Shown here piece by piece: positions 19,100 through 42,923 of a stretch of DNA of 64,000 nucleotides (position 1 is its first letter; the number at the start of each line of letters is the position of its first letter). This stretch comes from Sphingopyxis sp. LC363 (lineage in GTDB: Bacteria; Pseudomonadota; Alphaproteobacteria; Sphingomonadales; Sphingomonadaceae), in contig NZ_JNFC01000005.1 of assembly GCF_000756385.1 (NCBI RefSeq), forward strand, positions 1-64,000. The letters run 5' to 3'. The notes under the pieces are model-generated. The model was not told the origin of the DNA. It saw nothing but the letters and a program-made list of their open reading frames with translations, and searched no databases. The translations under genes and the position numbers were made by a program.

Positions 19100-19139
19100 G
19101 ACAGGCCAAGCAAAAACGCACAGCACTTCCCCCTTTTCG

Positions 19140-19208
19140 TCACCCCGGACTTGATCCGGGGTCCATAACCGCACCGTTGGAATGGATGCCGGATCAAGTC
19201 CGGCATGA
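19140..19208. repeat. Paired-palindrome intergenic repeat (copy 1)
   Basis: The 26-nt arms 19140-19165 and 19183-19208 are inverted copies of each other with four mismatches, and each arm is itself a small palindrome centred on GACTTGATCCGG. It lies between the convergent YbjN-like gene and suhB. The same architecture recurs at 24155-24232 and 27102-27202. It may serve as a bidirectional transcription end. Confidence 0.75.
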
Positions 19209-19219
19209 TGAAAGGAAGA

Positions 19220-20038: not shown

Positions 20039-20049
20039 AATCAATCTCC

Positions 20050-20152
20050 CCCCTCCCGCTTGCGGGAGGGGTCGGGGGAGGGAATGTTTCCTACCGGAAA
20101 GAACCCGTCCCTCGACAGGCCCTCCCCTAGCCCCTCCCGCACGCGGGAGGGG
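20050..20152. repeat. Compound palindromic repeat between efp and suhB
   Basis: Two hairpins, CCCCTCCCGC-TT-GCGGGAGGGG (20050-20071) and CCCCTCCCGC-AC-GCGGGAGGGG (20131-20152), lie at the ends, and the inner tails GGGGGAGGG and CCCTCCCC also pair. The whole element is therefore a long inverted repeat of about 103 nt. Its first 33 nt recur identically at 42487-42519 inside bkdB. Confidence 0.85.
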
Positions 20153-20159
20153 AACTCAT

Positions 20160-24154: not shown

Positions 24155-24232
24155 CGTCATCCCGGCGAAGGCCGGGATCTCGCCGGTGCATCAGAACGCG
24201 AGGTTGAGATTCCGGACTTCGCCGGGATGACG
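24155..24232. repeat. Paired-palindrome intergenic repeat (copy 2)
   Basis: Arms 24155-24180 and 24207-24232 (26 nt each, two mismatches) form an inverted pair, each containing a small palindrome of the type TCCCGGCGAAGGCCGGGA. It lies between the convergent lipoprotein and O-methyltransferase genes. It has the same layout as 19140-19208 and 27102-27202 but a different core. Confidence 0.75.
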
Positions 24233-41621: not shown

Positions 41622-42923
41622 TCAATCCGCGAACAGCAGGACCGGCGTCTCGATCAATTTCTTGAGCGCCTGCACATAGCTCGCGGCGTCCCAGCCATCG
41701 ACGACGCGGTGGTCGCAGCTTATCGACAGGTTCATCAGCTTCGCGCGGCGGATATCGTCGCCGTCGAACACCGGGCGTTCGACGATCTTGTTCGGGCCGA
41801 TGATCGCGACCTCGGGCCGGTTGATCACCGGGGTCGTCGCGATGCCGCCGAGCGGGCCGAGCGAGGTCACGGTCAAAGTGCCGCCGGTTAATTCCTCGAC
41901 CTTCGCCTTGCCCGTGCGCGCGGCTTCGGCAAGGCGCGCGATCTCGCTCGCAAGCTGCCAGACATTCTTGTCCTGCGCATCACGGATCACCGGAACCATC
42001 AGCCCCGCGTCGGTCTGCGTCGCCATGCCGAGATGCACCGCGCCGTGGCGCGTGACCACGCCGCCTTCGTCGTCGTAGCGCGCGTTGATCATCGGAAATT
42101 CGGGAATCGTGCGGCAGATCGCGACGATCAGGAAGGGCAGCATCGTCAGCTTGGGACGGCCACCACGGTTGGCGTTGAGGTCGGCGCGCATCTCTTCGAG
42201 CGCGGTAACGTCCATTTCCTCGACATAGGTGAAGTGCGGGATCGCGCGTTTCGACGCCGCCATATTCTCGGCAATCTTGCGGCGCATGCCGATGACCTTG
42301 ATCGGCTCGTCGGCGCGCGCACGGCTGGCGCCGGGGGCGTGATAGCCCTGCCCCGCGCTGTAACGCAGGAAGGCATCGAGATCGGCGTGACGGACCCGGT
42401 CGCCATCGGATTGCACCTGTGACAGATCGATGCCCAGATCCTTGGCGCGCGCGCGGACAGCGGGCGATGCCAGGACAGCCTTATCTCCCCTCCCGCTTGC
42501 GGGAGGGGTCGGGGGAGGGGTTGTTTCAGAAACGGCCGGAGTGGGCTCAACAGGCCCTTCCGCAACCGGGAGCGAAACCGCCTCAGCATCCGAAACCTCT
42601 TCGGCCCCCGGCGTCTCCGAGACAATCTCTTCTTCGATCGGCGTATCGGCAGGGGGCGCTTCAACCTCGCCCTCCCCATCGCCATCGGTCTCGATCACCG
42701 CGAGCGTCGAGCCGATCGGGATCAGGTCGCCGACCTCGCCCGCCAGTTCAACGACGATCCCCGACACGGGCGATTCCATTTCGACGGTCGCCTTGTCGGT
42801 CATCATGTCGGCAAGCTGCGCATCTTCCTCGACGCGTTCGCCTACACGCACGTGCCAAGCGACAATTTCGGCCTCGGCGATGCCTTCGCCGATGTCGGGC
42901 AGACGGAATGAATAGCGGGCCAT
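41622..42923 (-). CDS. bkdB: Branched-chain 2-oxoacid dehydrogenase E2 (lipoamide acyltransferase)
   Basis: A 433-residue E2. Residues 1-80 are one lipoyl domain with the lipoylated Lys in DKATVEMESPVSG. A Glu/Pro-rich linker covers about 85-147. The E3/E1-binding domain is at about 150-185 (ASPAVRARAKDLGIDLSQV). The catalytic domain is the C-terminal half, ending SCDHRVVDGWDAASYVQALK with the HxxxDG active site. It transfers acyl groups from lipoate to CoA in valine, leucine and isoleucine breakdown. Part of the linker (residues about 135-146) is encoded by a palindromic repeat. It is 4 nt after bkdA2. Lipoate may come via LipB at 60.9 kb. Confidence 0.92.
   Translation of the reverse strand: MARYSFRLPDIGEGIAEAEIVAWHVRVGERVEEDAQLADMMTDKATVEMESPVSGIVVELAGEVGDLIPIGSTLAVIETDGDGEGEVEAPPADTPIEEEIVSETPGAEEVSDAEAVSLPVAEGPVEPTPAVSETTPPPTPPASGRGDKAVLASPAVRARAKDLGIDLSQVQSDGDRVRHADLDAFLRYSAGQGYHAPGASRARADEPIKVIGMRRKIAENMAASKRAIPHFTYVEEMDVTALEEMRADLNANRGGRPKLTMLPFLIVAICRTIPEFPMINARYDDEGGVVTRHGAVHLGMATQTDAGLMVPVIRDAQDKNVWQLASEIARLAEAARTGKAKVEELTGGTLTVTSLGPLGGIATTPVINRPEVAIIGPNKIVERPVFDGDDIRRAKLMNLSISCDHRVVDGWDAASYVQALKKLIETPVLLFAD
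42487..42558. repeat. Palindromic repeat copy inside the bkdB reading frame
   Basis: Positions 42487-42519 are identical to the first 33 nt of the intergenic repeat at 20050-20082. Further on, TGTTTC and ACAGGCCCT (42550-42558) match the same order and nearly the same spacing in the intergenic copy. On the coding strand the element is read in frame as the Pro-rich linker PPPTPPASGRG. Confidence 0.85.

Follow-up and report, generated by a model that had tools for sequence, protein, structure and literature searches.

A dispersed palindromic doublet in the reading frame of Sphingopyxis bkdB

The insert in the bkdB linker and the F1 family

The window, 64,000 nucleotides from Sphingopyxis sp. 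LC363, carries on its reverse strand a gene for the E2 component of a 2-oxoacid dehydrogenase, in which a lipoyl, an E3-binding and an acyltransferase domain follow one another in this order (Table 1). It adjoins the genes of a putative branched-chain E1, i.e. an E1 alpha with PF00676 and PF12573 and an E1 beta with transketolase domains according to Pfam. PF12573 is the N-terminal domain of 2-oxoisovalerate dehydrogenase and its presence in the adjoining E1 alpha thus supports the label bkdB. No NCBIfam equivalog scored above cut-off for the E2 or for either E1 gene, so the substrate of the E2 is a putative one.

Table 1. Features of the bkdB locus and of the intergenic copy compared with it (window positions)
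Feature	Position	Strand	Evidence
bkdB-type E2 (2-oxoacid dehydrogenase acyltransferase), 433 aa	41622..42923	-	ORF; Pfam PF00364, PF02817, PF00198
Lipoyl domain (Biotin_lipoyl), residues 6-77	42693..42908	-	PF00364
Inter-domain linker, the landing site, residues about 78-151	42471..42692	-	between PF00364 and PF02817
Intact F1 arm and tail, downstream in coding sense, translated TTPPPTPPASGRG	42484..42527	-	33-nt identity, 44-nt repeat, genomic 20-mers
Centre between the F1 arms, sequence variable among relatives	42528..42545	-	comparison with L063-L088
Degenerate upstream F1 arm (coding sense), VSLPVAEGPVE	about 42546..42578	-	palindrome broken; mismatched F1 core, linker offset 125
E3-binding (PSBD) domain, residues 150-178	42390..42476	-	PF02817
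Catalytic acyltransferase domain, residues 205-431	41631..42311	-	PF00198
Intergenic F1 doublet, both palindromes intact, the copy used for comparison by the sequence-only reading	20050..20151	.	palindrome-core matches; RNA fold

The sequence-only reading had placed a copy of an intergenic palindromic repeat at 42487-42558, in frame in the linker between the lipoyl and the E3-binding domain. The insert is indeed in frame, and the Pfam domains on both sides of it are intact. The 33 nucleotides 42487-42519 are identical to 20050-20082 and the identity ends at both sides; with mismatches allowed the match extends over 42484-42527 and 20047-20090, i.e. 44 nt at 93%. Landmarks further downstream, which had been said to keep order and spacing, proved to be real and are part of a second, inverted arm. 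The element does lie in the linker, of which it forms a part, but it reaches beyond the limits first given, to about 42484-42578. The reading as a copy of an intergenic palindromic repeat was also correct, and the repeat proved to be a dispersed one; the unit, however, is an inverted doublet of two arms, one of which has decayed here.

In coding sense the intact downstream arm of the window copy reads TPPPTPPASGRG. In the close relatives L063 and L064 (L, G and C numbers are our labels for loci, genomes and contigs) the upstream arm is intact (PLPLAGGARGG), and their linkers measure 237 nt versus 225 nt in the window, which amounts to an in-frame shortening by 12 nt. Complete doublets with the frame running through both arms were present in the bkdB linkers of L063, L065, L067, L069 and others. 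RNA folding of the window linker in mRNA sense gave a z of -0.7 over 147 nt and of -2.1 over 42480-42582; the intergenic copy at 20041-20157 folded with -83.6 kcal/mol and a z of -8.1. The bkdB doublet of the window is an ageing one: one arm has degenerated without loss of the frame, and little of the long mRNA hairpin is left. In L065, a tandem duplication affects the tail of the upstream arm (AGGGAGGG in the protein), by which the captured element is expanded in frame.

An alignment of 26 rows (A1) had no invariant column between E78 and A152. AlphaFold assigned a pLDDT below 50 to residues 82-148, which proves little because the model is poor overall (mean 48.3). The view of the sequence-only reading that the linker tolerates inserts appears likely.

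When the copies were lined up, many members of the family, here termed F1, took the form of a palindrome, a G-rich tail and a variable centre, followed by the same in reverse. A genome-wide search for the repeat, which had been proposed as a check, yielded 44 exact copies of the 20-mer CCTCCCGCTTGCGGGAGGGG in the 4.21-Mb genome (73 contigs) and none of the reversed control; an 18-nt F1 core had 57 strict places. In the window, the palindrome core matched six times (three places on both strands) versus 0.07 matches expected from shuffles. A second arm with up to four mismatches was found within 160 nt in 34 of 43 distinct copies, a number in which copies with identical flanks were merged. The best named relatives of the F1 sequences were from Sphingopyxis. 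Several copies are located at contig ends (C22, C43 and both ends of C59).

Judged by codon score and ORF reading, F1 spans a gene in frame in two of 38 elements, those in bkdB and carA. The 38 elements represent 54 of the 57 strict places, with 17 less exact places outside the count, and those at contig ends were judged from one side only. Of the other 36, some were placed between genes by ORF reading, and the rest gave no sign of an in-frame span in the codon score. Two loci with a high codon score were rejected by ORF reading: L020 is a spacer between two genes, which from their sequence we take to be purN and purM, and L057 is a spot upstream of an ATG. The count of coding copies, likewise proposed as a check, thus gave carA as the second in-frame site of the same genome. 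Two further E2 genes, presumably of the aceF and sucB type, were inspected. The aceF-like gene has an Ala-Pro linker and no F1; the sucB-like gene is Ala-Pro-rich and has no F1 where it is readable, its N-terminal part meeting a contig end. Among 22 elements of a second family, F2 (loci of 30 of its 60 places), none was in frame by codon score.

The bkdB and carA sites across the genus

Orthologues of bkdB were found in 78 of 80 Sphingopyxis genomes. The linkers of 80 loci from 77 genomes contained F1 in 13 cases (11 in intact genes), F2 in 10, F3 in 6 and none of the three in 51. The count takes in paralogues (two loci each in G018, G071 and G078) and a few broken or cut genes: L217 and L218 (F1, frame broken across the repeat) and L222 (F2, cut) were included though not intact, L220 (cut by a contig end) and L214 (N-terminus cut) were entered as none, and L221 stands outside. 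F2 linkers encode peptides of the type VRPEPVEGPS...GASTSSARTE, F3 linkers of the type SPLQGRGLGEG...PLSPEGERE, and nearly all of them are inverted pairs too. The 51 remaining linkers were Ala-Pro-rich by a simple rule (30), of a KVTELTS type (10) or mixed (11); the mixed ones include two Ala-Pro-like linkers, the degenerate, F2-like L202, L206 and L207, and one that is cut by a contig end.

Forty-four further named bkdB loci, among them one Sphingopyxis record identical to L212, held F1 in 9, F2 in 6, F3 in 4, F4 in 3 and F5 in 2 cases. The linkers of the other 20 were entered as none, though several of these resemble degenerate or other palindromes that were not scored; F4 and F5 were defined from their palindromes in linkers alone. 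Thus the insert in the window is not a one-off, because the same site holds three unrelated families in the genus and two more in other sphingomonads. The sequence-only reading had named an outcome that would have pointed to chance similarity, namely the same nucleotides in all relatives and no other copies in the genome. This outcome did not occur, since copies are many and the site differs between species.

Two of the loci with F1 are broken genes. In L217 (G071, with an intact bkdB elsewhere in the genome) the bkdB-like frame is broken across F1, and a stretch with an F1 arm is duplicated, as if the repeat had promoted a rearrangement. L218 is the only bkdB found in G063 (one contig, 87% complete); its frame is also broken across F1, which may be a sequencing error.

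As dispersed repeats F1, F2 and F3 were present in 76, 65 and 31 of the 80 genomes, respectively, while the control gave none. F1 was more abundant elsewhere in genomes with an F1 linker (median 55 vs 23, Mann-Whitney p=2.9e-4), and so was F3 in genomes with an F3 linker (27 vs 0, p=2.2e-5); F2 showed no significant difference (11 vs 8, p=0.13). These comparisons cover 77 genomes and ignore kinship. A tree-aware comparison of linker family and copy number relied on three to five pairs, with which no family could reach significance; the pairs that differed did so nearly always in the expected direction.

In carA of the same genome (L016:903-2162, G000:C10) a complete F1 doublet lies in frame between the CPSase small chain and the GATase domain, both of which are intact according to Pfam. 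carA was matched in 73 of the 80 genomes; 70 loci were fetched and 69 read, leaving G049, G055, G058 and L297 (G079) outside. The site was empty in 46 genes and filled in 23, with F1 in phase A (11 genes, PSRLREG...PPASGRG), F1 in phase B (7 genes, SPLPLAGG...NPSREREG) or a further family, F6 (5 genes, PFASSEVEMPI...GVSTSLDTNG). F6 is a repeat, too, and was detected at various places in 26 of 359 loci, some of which overlap. All 23 inserts are located between LGxGY and PH, a stretch of 56-73 residues in filled and 28-32 residues in empty genes. Comparison of filled and empty sites by eye indicated that native residues were replaced, so that a clean insertion boundary is unreadable. In L250, the carA of G078, a further stretch is inserted in the left arm of F6, which suggests nested capture.

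Inheritance, insertion and exchange

The history of the sites was examined on quick single-gene trees built without the linker, in which weak branches were left open (49 of 119 for bkdB, 25 of 66 for carA). The state of the site changed 39 times over 124 rows of bkdB, compared to 49.5 times in shuffles, and 18 times over 69 rows of carA, compared to 22.0 times; none of 200 shuffles was as low in either gene. Part of the pattern is thus inherited. Well-supported branches of the bkdB tree alone forced 8 changes for F1, 11 for F2 and 6 for F3. Close sisters on this tree may differ, as do L075 (F1) and L199 (F3) or L187 (F2) and L188 (Ala-Pro).

The phase of the inserts carries further information. 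The 11 intact bkdB linkers with F1 in the genus share one phase and have similar centres, so that F1 may have entered the bkdB of Sphingopyxis once, followed by recombination or loss. Four Sphingomonas bkdB loci (L131, L136, L143 and L150) use a different phase for the downstream arm, which gives PLPHAGG or PLPQAEG. This further phase and the two phases in carA argue for several F1 insertions.

Taken together we consider it probable that F1 is a REP-like inverted doublet of about 95-115 bp and that the copy in the E2 linker encoded by bkdB arose by in-frame capture; it continues to belong to the predicted reading frame. Such an insertion would succeed because the linker is disordered and tolerant of length changes, and also because the F1 arms are free of stops in most phases and would encode a peptide rich in Pro, Gly, Ala and Ser. 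Turnover at the site may come about when a family that is active in the genome inserts anew, and also when species exchange linker alleles by homologous recombination via the conserved flanking domains.

The latter process could also be nearly the whole story, with linker cassettes being swapped between species via the flanking domains and new insertions being very rare and old. We regard this as a serious possibility. The common phase and similar centres of the 11 bkdB linkers fit it, as does the sister pair L075 and L199 with its similar flanks but different families. For 17 of the 23 filled carA rows, the 30 nt preceding the insert had a higher mean identity to alleles of the same state than to the closest empty relative, e.g. 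0.80 versus 0.60 in L230 and 0.78 versus 0.57 in L232. Thus some of the carA events were exchanges of an existing allele instead of new insertions. On the other hand, the best match of the same 30 nt was an empty allele in 5 of the 23 rows (L238, L242, L244, L250 and L252), the different phases of F1 in carA and in Sphingomonas bkdB speak for several separate insertions, and F3 occurs elsewhere, in 3 to 35 copies, in each of the six genomes whose bkdB linker contains it. We conclude that insertion and allele exchange have both happened to some extent.

The arms as nucleic acid and their relation to known repeats

The domains that flank the inserts show ordinary purifying selection, and thus the bkdB and carA proteins appear to be in use. 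In ten species with F1, the E3-binding and catalytic part of bkdB diverged by 0.065/0.042/0.273 per site at codon positions 1/2/3, whereas the downstream arm diverged by 0.067/0.067/0.033; none of 269 windows compared was as low at the third position. The upstream arm of bkdB gave 0.071/0.104/0.023 (eight species, 0 of 270 windows as low) and that of carA 0.018/0/0 (ten species, 0 of 180). The downstream arm of carA was less extreme with 0.04/0.04/0.036 and 3 of 181 windows as low. Third-position divergence in the two carA domains was 0.239 and 0.309. Divergence of the arms follows the pattern of DNA and not that of protein, with third positions at 0-0.04 compared to 0.24-0.31 in the flanking domains, and this applies to whichever phase is read. 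Uniformity of this kind means that the arms are young, homogenised or selected as nucleic acid, and the data do not choose between these. Within the capture reading, the copies would be young or homogenised with the genomic copies.

With respect to the phases, arm variants with CTAG or TTAG hold a stop in one forward and one reverse phase. Forward phases of intact genes read PLPLAGG or PSRLREG, while the forward phase PPACGRG, in which these variants have the stop, was met only in the broken bkdB genes L217 and L218.

Selection as nucleic acid is the core of another explanation, in which the palindrome is kept because it is useful, either as an mRNA hairpin that slows the ribosome between domains or as protein-binding DNA. 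Besides the conservation of the arm nucleotides beyond the needs of the protein, the folding of the complete doublets in mRNA sense would be in accord with it, since most of them fold far better than shuffles. In bkdB, L063 reached -98.2 kcal/mol (z -6.6) and L067 a z of -9.5, with L066 (z -2.1) and L083 (z -3.0) being the weakest; the carA inserts tested ranged from z -3.4 to -9.8, the latter in L247, and three Ala-Pro linkers from +1.6 to -0.8. Yet the copy in the window has lost most of its hairpin, 51 of the 80 genus loci do without the three families, unrelated families occupy the same site, and the aceF-like E2 as well as the sucB-like one, as far as readable, have no palindrome. Such a function is improbable in our judgement.

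A single ancient insertion that was inherited vertically and lost in many lineages is even harder to maintain. On the bkdB tree F1 indeed showed clustering beyond that of shuffles (13 changes vs 20.7, 0 of 500 as low), and the common phase and related centres of the intact genus linkers would be expected from one origin. F2 and F3, however, were scattered no less than in shuffles (15 changes vs 15.3, with 256 of 500 as low, and 9 vs 9.8, with 105 of 500). In AU tests a single clade was rejected in bkdB for F1 (p-AU 0.011, 11 intact rows), F2 (5e-5, 9 rows) and F3 (0.034, 6 rows), the tests having been run without L217, L218 and L220 (listed as F1) and L222 (F2), and in carA for F1 in phase A, F1 in phase B, F6 and any insert (all <1e-6). 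The arms, moreover, are far too uniform for old coding DNA. The AU tests and the presence of several families at one site led us to reject a single old insertion, which we deem very unlikely. A chance likeness of a linker to an intergenic repeat, for which the GC-rich genome and the many bkdB linkers that are Pro/Ala-rich anyway might be quoted, has a negligible probability and is refuted by the 33 exact nucleotides, the excess of core matches, the copy number against the control and the complete doublets in relatives.

Obligate intracellular Rickettsia are the best-known source of palindromic repeats in protein-coding sequence, and the likeness to these repeats had been noted by the sequence-only reading. 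Relevant sections of two papers describe RPE-1 to RPE-7 and the Wolbachia element WPE as dispersed repeats of about 100-150 bp that lie in frame in genes of conserved proteins without destroying them (PMC2229807, PMC3767692). In the case of RPE-4, RPE-6 and RPE-7, members of different groups lie close together in some orthologues, and the authors left room for insertion hot spots (PMC3767692). F1 behaves alike inasmuch as it is palindromic, located in frame in conserved genes (bkdB and carA) with intact flanking domains, and also intergenic. In contrast, F1 to F3 are GC-rich sphingomonad sequences, unrelated families share one site here, and the site is an inter-domain linker of E2 and CarA. 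F1 was found in Sphingopyxis and other sphingomonads, whereas RPE is an element of Rickettsia and WPE its counterpart in Wolbachia. Membership in the RPE family is unsupported, and in view of the lineage and the GC-rich palindrome sequence homology between F1 and RPE would be unlikely.

In-frame REPs outside Rickettsia have been in print since 2013. According to the main text of Di Nocera et al. 2013, GTAG/CGTC REPs are short palindromes, mostly arranged as head-to-head dimers and mostly intergenic, some of which are located in frame in genes of several species including Sphingopyxis alaskensis (PMC3733652). The same text suggests flexible linkers and loops as places of coding REPs, names mainly DNA repair and RNA genes, and mentions one same-site case, recB in two Xanthomonas (PMC3733652). 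The terms carbamoyl, carA, lipoyl, dehydrogenase and dihydrolipo had no match in that main text, and Additional file 3 may list bkdB or carA (PMC3733652). Like these REPs F1 occurs mostly as inverted dimers, in the 34 of 43 copies given above. Unlike them, it lacks the terminal tag, scored here as the exact motifs: CGTC occurred no more than 8 nt before the palindrome in 4 of 43 copies and GTAG/CTAC in none.

BIME or REP doublets mobilised by RAYT (TnpA-REP) transposases are a known class. F1 resembles it as a many-copy inverted pair of short palindromes with variable centres. It differs in that Y1_Tnp (PF01797), the domain of RAYT-type transposases, had no match in this genome and was matched in 15 of the 80 genus genomes, compared to 76 with F1. 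A resident RAYT was thus rejected as the mover; a past or trans-acting enzyme may have served instead. The translated MITE-like repeats ERIC/RU-1, RU-2 and RU-3 of enterobacteria are described as short non-autonomous elements that have become joined in frame to genes for proteins (PMC2229807, PMC2759123), with target-site duplication reported for RU-1 and RU-2 (PMC2229807). For F1, neither a target-site duplication nor a precise insertion boundary was found.

In-frame REPs are thus a known kind of event that has already been printed. The pattern is an unusual one, and we met no precedent in print for repeated capture at two fixed linker positions where unrelated families replace one another. 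A literature search, run without the name carA and largely confined to openly accessible papers, yielded none that deals with palindromes in the linkers of bkdB or carA.

Sphingopyxis is an environmental genus with many isolates, and two ordinary enzymes offer many natural replicates in the form of filled and empty sites, different families and different phases. With these replicates it can be tested at which rate mobile palindromes turn into protein, whether linkers are preferred targets or just permissive ones, and what keeps the arms identical as DNA. Furthermore, annotators should be warned that linker peptides such as PLPLAGG, PSRLREG and PPASGRG can be translated repeats and not conserved motifs.

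An intergenic site of the window offers a parallel. The element at 20041-20157 lies in a gap between conserved flanks. The gap was read in 29 loci, drawn from the 30 best matches in the genus (L330-L359). A different palindrome pair, CGTCGCCCCCGCGAAGGCGGGGGC and close variants, occupied it in four of them (L353, L355, L358 and L359), and L352 and L354 had mosaics. The data suggest that protein genes are not the only fixed places at which such exchange occurs. A bolder and in our opinion doubtful extension is that certain linkers and intergenic spots are standing palindrome slots of sphingomonad genomes, where a putative process swaps complete doublets of unrelated families, keeps the arms near-identical in any phase and continually rewrites core enzymes.

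The window holds other palindromes. The inverted pairs CGTCATCCCGGCGAAGGCCGGGATCTC at 24155-24232 and TTTCGTCACCCCGGACTTGATCCGGGGTCCAT at 19135-19213 look like other, perhaps CGTC-type, REP doublets. A perfect palindrome of 46 bp at positions 12-57, at the very start of the contig, is possibly an assembly fold-back.
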